A stretch of DNA of 64,000 nucleotides from the NCBI RefSeq assembly GCF_000165425.1, contig NW_001798956.1, positions 573,399 through 637,398 of the forward strand, given 5' to 3'. Both the position numbers and the translations under genes were made by a program. The notes beneath the pieces were generated by a model. It had not been told where the DNA came from and ran no database searches. It saw only the letters and a program-made list of their open reading frames with translations. The stretch is from Paramecium tetraurelia. Taxonomy: Eukaryota > Ciliophora > Oligohymenophorea > Peniculida > Parameciidae. This document shows, one piece after another, positions 13,357 through 21,872 of the stretch. Numbering within the stretch: position 1 is the first letter of the stretch; the number at the start of each line of letters is the position of its first letter.

Positions 13357-16225
13357 ATGACAAAATAGAATATATAGATTGAAAGTGAAACCTCTCTCTG
13401 TTTATTAAACAATAAGAAAGCGGAAATATAAAGTCCTGATATTGGTTCTAATATAATATTTAAGCCATTCGCTAAATTAATATTATATTTCCACATCGCC
13501 TCATTTGTGATTAGATTTTAGAGATATTTTAAGCCTGATGGTTCATTTATGGATAAACATTTTGCAATTATTGGAGATAAAGGATCAGGTAATTCGAAAG
13601 ATTTTTTAGCCTTCAAGTCCAAAAAGCCATCTTTAACTGTCGTAAACTTTGAATCGGTTTCATGGACAGTTCATGTACCCTATTTGTATCGACAATATAA
13701 AAGAAAATTAGAATTTTTGGCTACTAAATGCTTTAATTAAATTCCATTAATAGAACCAACAAACAAAATAAAAATGATTTGGGATATAATACTCAACCTT
13801 ATCCGAATTGAATTGTTGTACCTGATCCCAATACTGATAACTTATGAGAAGTTGTTGGATCAATATCACCTGACTTTGATTATAGCTTCCTTTTGCTTTT
13901 TGGTAGACATGGGATTGAAGAACATCACTATATACTTTGATTAAGGTCTTCCTATCAGAGACAGATACCAAATCTTGCACAATCAAAATGGTTTTTTCGT
14001 TTTAATTGAATTTTCAGGATTGTTGGGAATGTTTATATTTGCTGTGTTTTATAATTATTATGATGATGTATTCATATTAAATGGTGGATACCTTAAATTA
14101 CTACTATTGTTAGTATTCTATTAAATAAAGAATATTTTAGTATTTATTGATAACTTGTCTTAATCAATGTCATTTGGAAAGGCAACCTCTGCAATCATAG
14201 AATTGACTAGGTTGCTTGGAATATAATTAATACTGTAACATCTAAGTTCTTGTCTATGGTACATTCTAGATTTATATTAGGATTATCATTGGTAGATACT
14301 GCCTTTAAAATGGTATAAAAAATTGGATTGAAATTAATCAGTTGACAGAAAGTAGTTGGGATGACATTTATATAGAATCCCTGTATTTTATTAGCATATC
14401 TATGTTTACAGTAGGATATGGAGATGTCCATCCAAATAGTAACTAGTTTTAATAATTTAGATAAAATTGAGAAAATCTTTTCTATATTTTTTGTATTTCT
14501 ATGCGCATTTCAGCTCTCCTATAGTTTGGATACAATAGGACACTTATTGCAATAACTGAAAAAGACGAGTGAACAAATCAATAAGAAGCTGACATTCATC
14601 AATTAGTATATGCATAACAAGAATATCAGCAAGGACCTCTAAGTTCAAGTGAGAGAATACTTGCAATACTTTTGGTATTAAGAACAGACCAAACAAACAC
14701 TACAGTAATAAAAGATCCTAAATTAATTGTCTGATGATTTAAGAAGGTCTTTGGCTTATGAATCAAATATTCTGGTGTTTAAGAAATGTAAAGTATTCGC
14801 TTAGGAGTTTTCTTAAAAGTTCTAAAATGATCTATTGAAACAGTTATCCTTTTCAAATTACCAGCCTAGTATTCAAATTAATACACACATCGATGGAGAG
14901 TTGTTTTTACATATAATAGAATCGGGGAAGGTTAATGTGTATGAAAAAAATGAAAAGGATAACCATCTAACTTTGATGGGATCTCATAAGGAAGGAGAAT
15001 GCTTTAATTTGGAATAATTTTTCAAATAGGAGAAATAAGATAGATTAGTTTACAAAAGTGCTGGTTTTGTTAGTACTTTAGTTGTTCCTTTTAGTTTGTT
15101 TTATTAAACTCTACAAGATTATCAGAATGATTTAGAGAAATATCAAGACATTAAAAATTAAATCTAATAATCTTAGTTCCAATTAAAACAATGTGTCTCA
15201 TGTGATTCAAGAAGACATCAATCAGATTTATGTAGATAAGTTCATTATATACCTGATAGAGAGAAAGTCTTAAAATCATACATTTATAATTAATGTTAAG
15301 AGAGATAATTTTTTGTTAGAAATCGAAATCGGTTGAAAAACTACTTCAGTGCAAAGGTTGATATCGAATTTCTGAAGGAGGCAGCAAATTTAGTGAAGGT
15401 TAGCAATGAGAGTCACACATTTCTTAAATTTCAAGATTTAGAAGAGCTGAATAATGATGAGAGTAAACCGCATCTGAAAATTAAACATGATGCTGATTCT
15501 ATTTCTCTTTTGATCAAAGAATTTGAGAGTAAAAGCTACATTCCCGATGGGAATTCTGAGCTGAAATTACAATAGTCTTGTTCTCGATCTCGAGGATTGA
15601 ACCAAGAAGAATTCAATGTTCTTCAAAGTATAAATTAAAAACTAAGAAATAAACAATGTTTTACCTCTCATGATATTGAACAAATGGAATTCACAATTAA
15701 GAAATTAGAATTAAATTACAATCATCAATTTATCTAAGATTTTGAGAAGCTAAAAGAATTTAAAATTTACAACGTAAATCACAATGTTTCACAAGTATTA
15801 AAGTGCTAAAACTATCCAATACGAAAACTTTAATATAATAATTCTAATAGTTATGAAACTTGCCAACTTAGTTAGGCTAGTTATTTATTAAAATACCTAT
15901 TGTACCCATTCGATTTTATAAATCAATATAGAGTTTTGAATTTGAACGATATGAAGAGAAGTTAAAAGATTTCGAAAGTATAGTAAAGACAAAGAAGAAT
16001 GTCGAAAGAACTTCTATTAAAAAGAATAGGTAGAAAACTGATATTTAGAAAGGCATTACAGATTCACCCAGCCAAATGAGTAATGATAATATTAAATATT
16101 AAATGTTATCAATATTATACAAAACAAGATATCATGTATTTACGAGATCGAATAACTATCTGTATTGTTGTGATTGCAATCTAAGAGTTTTATGTTAAAA
16201 ATATGCATATTATTTCAATAATTGA
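13357..16225 (+). CDS. Cyclic-nucleotide-binding-domain K+ channel, copy 1 of tandem array
   Basis: 932 residues with introns at 14259-14280, 14439-14460 and a 26-nt one near 15930. Layout: cytosolic N-terminus with a KHFAIIGDK block, S1-S4, S5, pore loop with filter TVGYGD, S6, a C-linker (VREYLQYFWYQEQ), a CNBD-like fold (DGELFLHIIESGKVNVYE), then a Cys/His motif at 15192-15233 and a long charged tail. Family members are six-helix K+ channels of the EAG/CNG type at membranes. The S4 region (near 14090-14150) is almost free of Arg/Lys, so voltage sensing is doubtful. Whether the CNBD binds cAMP or cGMP cannot be told. Confidence 0.85.
14259..14280 (+). other. Intron inside S5 Trp codon, channel copy 1
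   Basis: 22 nt, splits a TGG codon after TG. Introns at the same codon and phase occur in copy 2 (17282-17302, 21 nt) and copy 3 (20143-20167, 25 nt). Removing each restores the frame into the conserved pore region. Confidence 0.85.
15192..15233 (+). other. CCHC zinc-knuckle-like motif in channel copy 1
   Basis: Encodes C-x2-C-x4-H-x4-C followed by VHYIPDREKV. The equivalent segments of copies 2 (18224-18262) and 3 (21069-21110) keep all four ligands and the HxxPDxEKV tail. It sits directly after the CNBD. Confidence 0.75.
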
Positions 16226-16262: not shown

Positions 16263-19147
16263 ATGAATTAGACCAACATAACAGATAACTCTCATATCTC
16301 TCATTGCCAATTAATGATTTAAGAGGAGTCTTTGCCTGGTTGCAATAATTCAAATCTCTATCATTCGATCGATATTTAAAATCAAACAGCTCAATAAATA
16401 TAATACCAAGAATGTCAAAGAATAGAGGACATCCCAGGTCAGAAAGAAAACTTAATCTAATCTGAAGTAAAAAAAAAACAATTTTCTCAATTAATGGTTC
16501 AATTCAATATCCATCATTTCAAAAGGAAGATGCTGTCCTATATTCATCCTTATAAGGAATTATCAAAAGGCTAGTTTAGCATGATCTCTGATAAGTCTTC
16601 ATCGTTCAAAAGCTATCCAAAAAAATAACAATAAAAAACATCGTTACTCCAATATAATAAGGCAGTGTTAGGATTTCGTAACATAATCAAAGATTTTAAT
16701 AATACTTTAGTAGCTTAAACCAAGAAAAAAGTGTCATAATTGATAGGCATAATCCCTATCATTAATCCGTACTCAACAACAAAATTGTTTTGGGATGGAA
16801 TAATCACCATAATGAGAATATACTTATTGATTTGGATTCCTATTTTGATTGCATTTAAAAATGGAACTTTGGAGGATTTGAACGCATATACTCTTAATGT
16901 GTGCAGTAGCGCTTTTTTAATTGATTTGGCAATGCAGACTTTTACAATAAGATTTGATAAGGGATTTCCTGTAAAAGATCGTTATCAATTGATACAATAT
17001 TAAATAAACTGGTGGACCGCAATAGAGTTATTTAGCTTTATTATATCTTTGTACTTCAGCATCCAATTTCATTAGAACAACTTTTCAATGTCAGTAGTAG
17101 AGGATAAAGGGTGGACCAAAACACTGCTGTTGCTGTTAATCGTCCAGACCAAAAATATTCTTTAGTTTATTGAGAATTTATAATGTGTAATAAAGCCGAG
17201 TAAGTCAACTAATTCATTAATCGAATTAGTGAAATTGATTTGTTTAATCTTATTAATCTAGCATATTTTTTCGTGCATATGGTATTGAAGAGATATAATT
17301 AGGGTTATCATTGGCACCTACGAGCATTTGAAATCTCAAACCTCTTGGCTTGATTTGGTGCACTTGGATATAGATTAGCCTTGGCATAACATTTATTTAG
17401 AGGCCATGTATTTCATAAGTGTGACTACATTTACAGTTGGATATGGAGATATAACCCCACAGAGTATATTCAATTTGATAAAGTATAGATACATCAGAAA
17501 AGTGTTTTACCATTGTCTACATGTTTTTCTGTACATTGTAGCTCTCTTATTCTGTAAATACGATAGGATCTATTTTGATCCAATTGAAGGAAAACAATGA
17601 GGAAATTAAATAGAAAATGACAGCTGTTACCGAACATATGACAAATAGACAAATGAGTCGTGGATTGTAGTTTAAGTATGGCAATAATTATCCCTTCATC
17701 TAGAGTTAGAGAGTATTTAACTTATTATTGGCAACAAGAGAACGTTTAAAAGAAAAATGAGACTGCCGAAATAATACGATTACTTCCAGAAGAACTTTAA
17801 AAGAGCATACAGAGAGAAGGAAGTTCCAATTTAATCAATAAGTGTTCATTTTTCAAAGAGAAATTTACTCCTGGGTTTCTAAATTAATTAGTGGAAATAG
17901 CTTATGTGTAGAACTTTTAGCCAGGAATAATAATCAATGATCTGCAAAATATATACATAATTGAATATGGATTTGTCGAAATCTTGCAAAATTAAGTATT
18001 TATATGATATCGATATTGATAGACTGTTGTTGGTTAATTAAGTTAATTTTAGTAGTTTGGCTTAAAAAAAGTGTCTATGGATTTGATAAATGAAACAAAA
18101 TATCGTACAAAATCATTTACAAATCTTCTTATTATTCCATATGCATCCTTAGTCTAATTAGTGGCATAAAATTAGAATGAATTGGAAATTGTATCATAGG
18201 CTAGTTTCAGTGTTAAAAATGAATGTGTTATATGCAAAGGTTCACATGTAACAGAATTGTGTCCCCAAGTGCATTTTATCCCAGACAAAGAAAAAGTAAT
18301 TAAAAAATATTTGTACAATTCTATACAGACTAGAGGAAGGATAAAGAGAAAACCTAAAGATTAGTTTTAAGAATGGAAAAACGAATTGAAGTTTTTTTAA
18401 GATACGGCTGAATAGTTCTAATAAGATTCCAGCAATGAAATCGAACTCCTATTCCCCAATAATGAAAAGTAATAACAAATGAACGCTTGTACATAGAATT
18501 CCCTACTTGAAATAAATGATGAGAAGCCTAAGTCAATTATAATTAATTTGCCTATAGGACAAAGGGGGGACTTGGATATGAAGATTGATAATAAGGATCC
18601 CTTAAAAAGTGATAGAAAATCAGAATTAAAAAATGATATCAGTGAACTATGTTTGAATCAGCAATTTGAAGCTATCTCTTAGAAATTCAAATAAATTCAA
18701 ATCTACAATGAAAAGATATAAAAGGACATTTTTTTACTGTATAAATAATTAGAATGCCTTTTGGGATAGAATGGATATGAAATTGATAAATATAAGAGTT
18801 ATAAACATTATTATAAGAGTTGGAATATCGAAAGAATCATAGTGGAACATAATTTTGCATCCAATTATATAAATCATCGAAGAAGCGAGAAGGTAGGTCT
18901 TGAGTAGATATCAAAATATCTATTGTTCCCGAAGATGTATTTACAAAAGTATCGAACTGAGAAACCTCCTGAGGTTTAGTAATAGCAGCAGCCCTAAGTG
19001 AATAAGAGTATAATTAATGAATATAATAGGCATCAGAACTTCCAAGAAAAAGAAGCGTATTGCCATCCATCCAGATTTTTGAATATTACATTATTAGTAA
19101 TTTTATAATGGATTAAAATTAAAACATCAGTCGTTGTACTCTAATGA
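16263..19147 (+). CDS. Cyclic-nucleotide-binding-domain K+ channel, copy 2 of tandem array
   Basis: 927 residues with introns at 17282-17302, 17464-17488, 17676-17703 and one of 27 nt near 17997. It starts 37 bp after the copy-1 stop. S1 (WDGIITIMRIYLLIW), S2-S6 and filter TTFTVGYGD are clear; the C-linker reads VREYLTYYWQQEN and the CNBD contains FQPGIIINDLQNIYIIEYG. The Cys/His motif is C-x2-C-x3-H-x4-C at 18224-18262. The C-terminal helix block KYLLFPKMYLQKY recurs in copies 1 and 3. The last exon runs past the copy-3 ATG and its stop overlaps it, so the 3' end is uncertain by some 40 bp. Confidence 0.85.
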
Positions 19148-21872
19148 TAAATGATAATCAGAGCGAATCTAATAACAATATTGATCATTCGATTATTGGA
19201 ATAGACGAAACGATTACCAAGAAGGTAGATTTAACTAAGAATATGAAATAAAAAACAAAGTTTGATCAAGCAGAAATCAATGTCTCATTTCAAAATTTGT
19301 AAAGTAATCAAACTAGCTCCATTTCTCCAAAGCAGAAATCCTTTTCAAAGTTATTGATTTATTTTCATTCAACCAAATACGCCAACAAAATGTTGCAATT
19401 TATTAGACCCAATCAGAAATTTCAAAGGAAGCATTTTGCAATCATTGATGATCCTGCATCATCATATAAGTATATGAAGAAAACAACAAACATCACTACA
19501 AACATAGTCAGATAACACTTATATTTGATTTGATTTCAGAATTAAATTTAGAATGAAATATAGAGCATTTAAAACTTCCTTAAAATAACAGTTACTTCTA
19601 TGCTTCTCATAAATTCCCTTGATTGAACCTTAAAGTAAATTCAAATTGTTATGGGATTTGATATTGAGTGCATTGAGAATGTACATGATAATATGGATGC
19701 CTATAGTAATTACATTCCATTCTAAAGATCTTGAATAATATCACAGTCTTTTTATCTTTTTAACCTGCCTATTTTTTATTCTAGACATTATCCTAAGAGC
19801 ATTCACAATATGCTACGACAAGGGACTTCCTCTGAAGGACAGATTCGAACTAGTGAAAAGGTAATTCACATTATCAACTGGGTTGGAATTGTTTACTATA
19901 TTATATGGGATCATTCTTACCTTCTCCTTTTTATCAGAAATAGAAAGTCCATACATACTGGAAGAGGATGGATGGCCTAGAATTCTACTTTTACTCTTCT
20001 ATTAATAAATAATGAATATTCTACAGTTTTTTGATACAATTTAGCATCAACTAAAATTGAGTAAGCTGAGTAATTCTTTTATAGAATTGCTTAAATTGGT
20101 GTTCTTGATTTTATTAATACAACATTTTTGTTGTTGTCTTTGGTAAGAATTATAGTGTATAATTAAGGGTAGTGATAGGAGAGTATAAGTAAAGGTAAGA
20201 CACAATCAATTGGCTTAAACGAGTGGAAGGAGAGCCTTGGTAAAATGTGTATTTGGAATCATTTTATTTTATGAGTGTTACTATGTTCACAGTAGGGTAT
20301 GGAGAGATAGTGCCAACAAGTAAGGTTCTTTTCTCTATTATAGACCCTATTGAGAAGATATTTTGTATCTGTTATATGTTTCTATCAACAATGCAGTTAT
20401 CATTTTCTGTGAATACAATAGGAACTATATTGACTTAAATCAAAGAGAACAATGAGAAGATCAGATAAAAAATGACTTGTATTAATGAATATATGAGAGA
20501 AAAATAAATTAGTCAAGGTTTGCAATATAAGTAAGAATAATTAAATCTAAGGTAGAGTGAGAGAATATTTTAATTTTTATTGGGAATAGGAAAATCATAT
20601 AAAAAAAAAATGAATAATCTGATTTGATCCAATTGTTACCAGAAGAATTGCAAACTGATCTCAAAATTGAGTCAGCTTAAGTTCTAATGAACAAATGTGA
20701 ATTTTTTAGGCAGTTCTTCTCCTAAAAATGCTTACATTAACTTCTCGAAAAAGTGGAGTTTAAGACCTTTTAACCTGGGATTATAATTGAAAATAATGAT
20801 CTTAATATATTCATTATTGAATAGGGTTTAGTTGAAGTTAAATAATAAAAGGTAAAGGTATATGTAATTTAAGAGATAATTATGTTATTTGAAGGAGAAT
20901 GATTATTTTGGTCATTTGGAAATGAAAAGTAATTAATCATCCTCTTTGCAATACAAGACAGCATCGTTTTGTAGTATTCTGATAATTCCCAATAAAGGAA
21001 TAAGGGAAGTTTTACAATAAAATGAAGTTGATTAGGAGTAATATTTGAAAATGAAAGAAATTATGTATTGTTATATCTGCTAAAATAAACATCATTCTAG
21101 TGATGATTGTCATCTGGTTCACTTTGTACCAGACAAGGAAAAGGTCATAAAGCAATACAATTTCATTCAGAACTAATGTCGTGACTTTTATAAACGATAA
21201 AGACACAGACATCATTTTTCTGCCTCCTAAGATTTTGAACTGATCTCTAATAGTGCTAAGATTTATCAAATAGAAAATGATCAAATCATAGAATAAATAG
21301 TTCCTAGTTTATTTTATGAGTAAAAGCAGTAAATTCAAGGATTCGAGGATTGCTTAAATCACGAGAAAATTAATTTAAGTGATAGCAATTATAGGCAAAG
21401 CAAATATTTATGTAAAGCTTCGGCATCTATAAAGATGCTAAGAACACAGACTATTGATATTTTGATGAATGATTATGGTACGAAGGAGATGTATGAGTAA
21501 ATTAAATAGAAATATTTAAATATCCATAAATACACTCAGTAATAATAACACGATCTCTAATTGCTTTATAAGTAGTTGACAAATAAGCGAGAGGATGATA
21601 CGGAGATTTGCGATAAGATCCACAACTTAAGGTGTAACAAGGATTGGAATTTGGAGAATGTCATTCGGAAGATTAATAGATGCTACAGATAGGAGTTTCA
21701 CTAAGCGGTGATAGAACAATTTCAGAAATATATGTTGTTTCCGAATTTGTTTGTATCTTTGTATAAGAGTAAGAAAATAAGAACTTAGGAGGACGAGGAA
21801 AGGCGGAATGCATCGGTGATCATTCAATAATATAAATAAAGTAAATTTGTGAATATAATCTATAAGATCTGA
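19108..21872 (+). CDS. Cyclic-nucleotide-binding-domain K+ channel, copy 3, damaged
   Basis: Same layout as copies 1 and 2: S1-S6, filter TMFTVGYGE (Glu replaces the usual Asp), C-linker VREYFNFYWEQEN, CNBD with FQPGIIIENNDLNIFIIEQG and KENDYFGHLE, a Cys/His motif at 21069-21110 and block KYMLFPNLFVSLY. Introns at 20143-20167, 20320-20343, 20531-20555 and one of 22 nt near 20850 match or resemble those of its sisters. Two places break the frame: a TGA plus frame change near 19530-19560, and an A10 run at 20601-20610 that is one base too long for the conserved frame. Either a decaying copy or sequence errors. Alternative start at 19144. Confidence 0.72.
20320..20343 (+). other. 24-nt stop-less intron in channel copy 3
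   Basis: Length is a multiple of three and contains no in-frame TGA, so an intron-retaining message would read straight through. It is recognised because copies 1 (14439-14460) and 2 (17464-17488) have introns at the same codon and phase. Confidence 0.8.

Follow-up and report, generated by a model that had tools for sequence, protein, structure and literature searches.

The window, by which we mean the whole stretch of 64,000 nucleotides of Paramecium tetraurelia DNA analysed here, contains three consecutive potassium channel genes in which a C-x2-C-x3/4-H-x4-C motif lies behind a domain resembling the cyclic nucleotide-binding domain (CNBD; Table 1). The window reads as ciliate nuclear DNA in code 6, with introns of 21-28 nt in copies 1 and 2. 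An automatic gene model was rejected because it skipped conserved segments, and introns read by hand were used instead: with two such GT..AG introns (22 and 22 nt) copy 1 forms one open code-6 frame, and copy 2 likewise has an open code-6 frame. Copy 1 can be aligned with HCN4 over S1-S6 (E 3.8e-10) and with CNGA1 structures over its C-linker and CNBD (phmmer, E 1.7e-11). The Pfam Ion_trans_2 model scores over its cut-off in both copy 1 and copy 2, and Ion_trans does so in copy 2; copy 1 narrowly misses the Ion_trans cut-off, with 24.3 of 25 bits. Pfam PF00027 matches copy 1 at E 0.014-0.017, which is below its cut-off, as is its match in copy 3; no PF00027 match was obtained in copy 2. At the sequence level the CNBD of copies 1 and 2 thus reads as divergent. 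A TVGYGD/E selectivity filter is situated about 783-794 bases 5' of each motif.

Table 1. Channel genes of the window and the features mapped in them
Feature	Position	Strand	Basis or remarks
Channel gene, copy 1	13357..16079; exons 13357-14258, 14281-14438, 14461-16079	+	892 aa; knuckle residues 598-611
Selectivity filter TVGYGD, copy 1	14408..14425	+	sequence
C-linker and CNBD-like domain without canonical phosphate-binding cassette, copy 1	14511..15170	+	phmmer, cassette test
CCHC motif CVSCDSRRHQSDLC, copy 1	15192..15233	+	profile alignment
Conserved post-knuckle segment VHYIPDREKVLK...QxR, then basic stretch, copy 1	15234..15338	+	
Channel gene, copy 2	16263..19082; exons 16263-17281, 17303-17463, 17489-17675, 17704-17995, 18023-19007, 19030-19082	+	898 aa; knuckle residues 621-633
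Selectivity filter TVGYGD, copy 2	17433-17450	+	sequence
CCHC motif CVICKGSHVTELC with x3 spacing, copy 2	18224..18262	+	profile alignment, window motif count
Channel gene, copy 3 (start and introns provisional)	19108..21872	+	sequence reading
Selectivity filter TVGYGE, copy 3	20289-20306	+	sequence
CCHC motif CYICQNKHHSSDDC, copy 3	21069..21110	+	profile alignment, window motif count

Copy 3 displays an apparent frame break at the A10 run at 20601-20610, as might arise in a pseudogene, from an assembly error or from an unusual intron. Its GYGE filter recurs in its pair at locus L019 (G000:C84:54800-62300), a paralogous block in which copies 2 and 3 have tandem counterparts (78% and 73% identical, respectively, over the stretch compared), an arrangement such as a genome duplication would leave.

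Read in code 6 (TAA/TAG = Q), the motifs of copies 1, 2 and 3 are followed by HYIPDREKV, HFIPDKEKV and HFVPDKEKV, respectively, and the spacing between the second Cys and the His is four residues in copies 1 and 3 and three in copy 2. The six code-6 frames of the window contain exactly three instances of C-x2-C-x3/4-H-x4-C, whereas 40 first-order resampled 64-kb sequences averaged 0.075 and never held more than 1, and a chance motif was rejected on this ground. The preliminary description, which had reported three CCHC motifs with a trailing HxxPDxEKV in these genes, is therefore borne out, and these are the sole such motifs in the window.

In the genome searched (69 Mb in 231 contigs, for which match counts are lower bounds), tblastn with the C-terminus of copy 1 recovered at least 47 matches, 43 of them covering the motif position, and a profile built from the window copies aligned 44 stretches, namely the three of the window and 41 elsewhere (loci L001-L008 were left out of this alignment, their places being covered by the window and later fetches). 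The C, C, H and C ligands are kept in 44 of the 44, of which 43 were collected with a tblastn query starting at the first Cys, a procedure that favours members retaining the motif and may under-represent losses precisely at that point. A check for ligand loss in relatives found none: the Tetrahymena relative also keeps all four, and the 23 of 67 profile domain rows that lie outside the alignment, which are weak-scoring fragments, show no degraded CCHC behind a CNBD or beside a channel. A query comprising the CNBD and knuckle of locus L070 extends the family further, with 141 of at least 144 rows reaching the last ligand (150 of 163 candidates scored) and at least 137 of the 144 spanning both CNBD and motif, while four cover the motif side only; these figures describe the reach of BLAST matches and not a letter-level check of the ligands. 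With more than 100 genome matches sharing the arrangement, the motif first noted in three neighbouring genes is not a local oddity. Locus L037 (G000:C73:2100-6700) holds two knuckle-bearing channel ends on one strand, 3 kb apart, the second of which is absent from the tblastn matches, and two or more knuckle-bearing ends per fetched stretch recur at L010, L011, L019, L023, L028 and L033. A scan of viral contigs returned no viral relatives.

The 44-row alignment shows the spacing C-x2-C-x4-H-x4-C in 42 rows and the x3 variant in two, these being window copy 2 and its L019 pair. CP stands after the last Cys in 31 of the 44 rows; past the knuckle, columns E30, K34, Q42 and R44 are each at least 90% conserved, and the approximately 35 residues after the last Cys carry a net positive charge in every row (mean +6.3, range +4 to +11). 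A [TS]xGYG filter is found about 723-823 bases upstream of the motif in 42 of the 44 loci. When the open piece around each motif (present in 44 of 44) is aligned and columns with at least 60% occupancy are counted, six out of 383 show no variation, namely the four ligands (44 rows), one Leu (35 rows) and one Pro (37 rows); most CNBD columns vary while the ligands do not. Both synonymous codons are used at each ligand (TGT/TGC 35/9, 24/20 and 37/7 for the cysteines; CAT/CAC 41/3 for the histidine). When 14 reciprocal-best pairs (55-91% identity, dS close to saturation) are pooled, the CNBD side upstream has a dN/dS of 0.065, the motif segment one of 0.096 and the downstream part one of 0.13; at its pooled value the motif segment is under purifying selection. 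The earlier contention that the sequences flanking the motif have diverged accordingly holds 3' of about +45 residues, where dN/dS exceeds that of the motif segment, and fails on the CNBD side, which as a whole is the more constrained. The notion of a pseudogene array was rejected for copies 1 and 2, in view of their open frames, and for the family, in view of its dN/dS; copy 3 might be a pseudogene.

With regard to the identity of the module, Pfam zf-CCHC (PF00098) gives no match in copies 1 and 2 or in the copy-3 piece, and it matches seven of the 44 motif rows at E<=10. Across the genome it yields at least 50 matches at E<=1, with 38 over cut-off. Half of the 50 listed (25) fall inside matches to the CNBD-plus-knuckle query of L067, and 16 of these 25 are over cut-off, so that 16 of the 38 over-cut-off places listed lie inside CNBD-plus-knuckle matches. 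Searched against the PDB, the motif profile retrieves 7w5z chain C (1.7e-7), AIR2 (5.9e-5), nucleocapsids (from 5.1e-4) and Lin28 (0.006), with weaker matches to RBBP6 (0.05), ZCCHC8 (0.09) and CLIP-170/Restin (0.92); the AIR2, nucleocapsid and Lin28 structures matched are ones that we take to contain zinc. AlphaFold models reached a mean pLDDT of 46.6 (5-row window alignment) and 56.2 (3-row), which is too low to show ligand geometry. The link from the family profile to solved knuckles and the 16 over-cut-off Pfam places in sister channels give good support to the original suggestion that these K+ channels carry a CCHC zinc knuckle behind their CNBD, and we regard it as very highly probable, on sequence criteria, that the region is a zinc-knuckle-type module behind a CNBD-like domain.

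The distribution of this module among CNBD proteins was surveyed through PF00027, at least 150 listed matches of which were merged by hand into 133 loci; 52 were read, namely the 20 best, the 12 weakest and those ranked 41-60. This sample is small and free of the bias of a motif query, and for ranks 41-60 the reading extended about 180 bases beyond the CNBD and would not have reached a motif separated from it by an intron or a longer linker. The motif is present in seven of the 52 (L067, L070, L077, L078, L085, L091 and L093), and the knuckle was therefore rejected as a feature of every CNBD protein. Many of the PF00027 loci devoid of the motif are probably not channels. Two others, L066, with a TVGYGD filter, and L076, which adjoins an Ion_trans match, are channel-like, and the sequence read behind their CNBD contains no knuckle; therefore the knuckle marks a subset of CNBD channels. 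The L066 channel query matches 12 fetched loci, of which L093 alone has the motif, the remaining 11 (L062, L063, L064, L066, L074, L075, L076, L079, L082, L083 and L089) being free of it; this query is no test of a clade because it also weakly catches knuckle-bearing channels.

The phosphate-binding cassette GE...R[TSK][AS][ST]A is found in one of the 44 motif rows (L038) and is missing in the other 43; it is also found in L067 and L070, which lie outside the 44, and the knuckle is present in all 46. Since the knuckle is kept where the cassette is missing, its role is independent of nucleotide binding. The S4 stretch of L070, SAKLLRLLKFLRFIKILKLLRL, has seven K/R residues and the part of copy 1 aligned there, KLLLLLVFYQIKNILVFI, has two; S4 of copies 2 and 3 looks equally poor in K/R, in an alignment that is gapped. 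The window channels may hence be voltage-insensitive as well as devoid of the cassette, and, with the cassette missing in 43 of 44 rows and S4 poor in charge, the module that is kept throughout is not the nucleotide-sensing one. The simplest history would be one in which cassette and knuckle originally occurred together and the relatives in the window lost the cassette and not the knuckle.

The module as a whole spans about 45 residues directly behind the CNBD-like domain and comprises the CX2CX4HX4C knuckle, a V/L-H-F/Y-x-P-D-x-E-x-x-I-K segment, QxR and a basic stretch. Its four ligands are among the best-kept positions of an otherwise drifted region, which suggests that it probably has a real job. 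We propose, with a probability of roughly one half, that the module is stabilised by zinc, sits where helix C ends and serves docking or assembly. One structural Zn2+ would be bound constitutively by the knuckle; so folded, the knuckle would cap helix C at its end, beneath the cytosolic gating ring, as the order of domains suggests, and offer a protein-docking or subunit-assembly surface to an adjacent subunit or to a partner in the cytosol. Even with a dead nucleotide pocket, channels could in this manner still be assembled, placed or gated by way of the module. The knuckles of AIR2 and CLIP-170/Restin serve protein-protein contacts, and many nucleic-acid-binding knuckles occur in tandem; the presence of a single knuckle would count in favour of docking. 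The conservation of E30, K34, Q42 and R44 past the knuckle exceeds what would be required of a bare structural turn. The basic tail counts against the docking reading in that it would also suit RNA or an acidic lipid. The conjecture that the knuckle may couple the channel to another signal is plausible. Going further, a large group of ciliate K+ channels might have lost both the S4 charges and the cassette, leaving the invariant knuckle as the main regulatory input through a partner protein or through zinc/redox chemistry; we offer this tentatively and consider it unlikely, though, if true, it would represent an undescribed control of a CNBD-type channel.

Several other explanations of the module deserve consideration. 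It could be purely a structural cap by which the knuckle staples the end of helix C to a post-CNBD helix of the same subunit, with no partner or signal involved. Such a local fold element would fit the invariant ligands, the helix that the 3-row AlphaFold model predicts right after PD (pLDDT about 71 in that block, lower in the rest) and the retention of the knuckle both with and without the nucleotide cassette; however, the conserved H, PD and QxR beyond the knuckle, together with the basic tail, point to a role larger than that of a staple, and the CNBD channels L066 and L076 manage without one. We deem a bare cap a doubtful alternative. If the window copies, lacking the cassette and seemingly poor in S4 charge, are in want of another input, reversible loss of Zn2+ or oxidation of cysteine might gate the channel in place of the lost voltage and nucleotide inputs, and three Cys and one His do make up a redox-capable site. 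Yet CX2CX4HX4C sites usually hold zinc tightly, and the knuckle is also found in L038, L067 and L070, channels with an intact cassette in which no replacement is needed. We rate a zinc or redox sensor as distinctly unlikely.

A role in binding RNA or other nucleic acids, through local tethering of mRNA or RNA-tuned gating, draws on the fact that the nearest solved knuckles (AIR2, nucleocapsid and Lin28) come mostly from RNA-binding proteins, on the Phe/Tyr at C1+1 in 27 of the 44 rows, and on the uniformly basic residues that follow (+4 to +11 in 44 of 44). Against it are the single knuckle, the membrane-channel context and, unlike classical nucleocapsid knuckles, a Gly before the His in just five of the 44 rows with a variable residue after it, and we view nucleic acid binding as quite improbable. 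As for a chance motif or the functionless relic of a fusion with a mobile element, the shortness of the motif and the apparent frame break in copy 3 could be cited; set against three occurrences where 0.075 are expected, conservation in 44 of 44 rows, a pooled dN/dS of about 0.1 and presence in Tetrahymena, its probability is negligible. We regard docking or assembly as the best reading.

Why Paramecium needs so many K+ channels is an old puzzle. An invariant module shared between ciliates, present in more than 100 channel-like matches and kept without the cassette, offers a concrete target here, and mutating the four ligand residues should reveal what the knuckle channels are connected to. 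For the superfamily of CNBD channels, docking through a metal site would, if true, be a new regulatory architecture. Several hundred K+-channel subunit genes are reported for Paramecium tetraurelia in a passage of PMC3283738, and the CNBD is among the top domains of species-specific Tetrahymena genes according to a passage of PMC6564038. The open-access literature yielded no paper joining zinc knuckle, potassium channel and cyclic nucleotide-binding, and the open-access papers naming Paramecium, CCHC and channel concern other subjects by their titles. No description of a knuckle on a CNBD channel was found among the open-access matches listed, nor in passages of PMC7576140, PMC10227065, PMC10060162, PMC8208649, PMC3283738 and PMC6564038; the main text of the eukaryote-wide survey PMC7576140 mentions neither Paramecium nor Tetrahymena nor zinc. 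Some of these proteins may already be annotated with zf-CCHC in InterPro or ParameciumDB.

Outside this species, a relative is seen in 7w5z chain C, titled 'Cyclic nucleotide-binding domain protein', which is the best PDB sequence match of copy 1 and matches its transmembrane part (E 5.3e-20) and, in a separate segment, the region from S6 through the CNBD into CYNCKKIGHISSSCP (E 4.1e-18). The Tetrahymena protein has the knuckle, ECYNCKKIGHISSSCPKTHQIFDKQ, in common with the window copies and, unlike them, keeps a cassette-like GEISFFSGLSRKASA. The knuckle starts at query residue 278, and in the 60 of 65 matches listed 7w5z chain C is the one channel whose alignment runs past residue 276. The sequence of chain C is that of a CNBD channel of 1471 aa and was deposited as part of complex IV. 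In passages of PMC10060162 and PMC10227065, 7w5z is the Tetrahymena complex IV dimer, COX3 is assigned to Ymf67/Ymf68 (PMC10060162), and the passages of both papers found by search terms hold nothing on the CNBD chain C protein. We infer from the source of this structure that the species is Tetrahymena thermophila, and the chain may be mis-assigned in complex IV.

As regards CNG, HCN, KCNH and SthK channels, the transmembrane region of copy 1 is alignable with HCN4 and its C-linker and CNBD with CNGA1, and the TVGYG filter is shared; the ciliate proteins differ from CNBD channels in that 43 of the 44 motif rows are without the phosphate cassette. With the zf-CCHC knuckles of nucleocapsid, AIR2 and Lin28 the module has in common the CX2CX4HX4C spacing and, in the 31 rows noted above, the CP after the last Cys, whereas it is single, fused to an ion channel, devoid of a Gly preference before the His and backed by a conserved PDxE...K...QxR segment. 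A metal site on the cytosolic part of a tetrameric channel is also seen in Kv channels, in which the zinc lies at the interfaces of T1 domains; T1, however, is N-terminal. A docking element after the CNBD is likewise known from plant CNGCs, which use calmodulin-binding helices or IQ regions in that position, whereas the ciliate channels would use a zinc knuckle.
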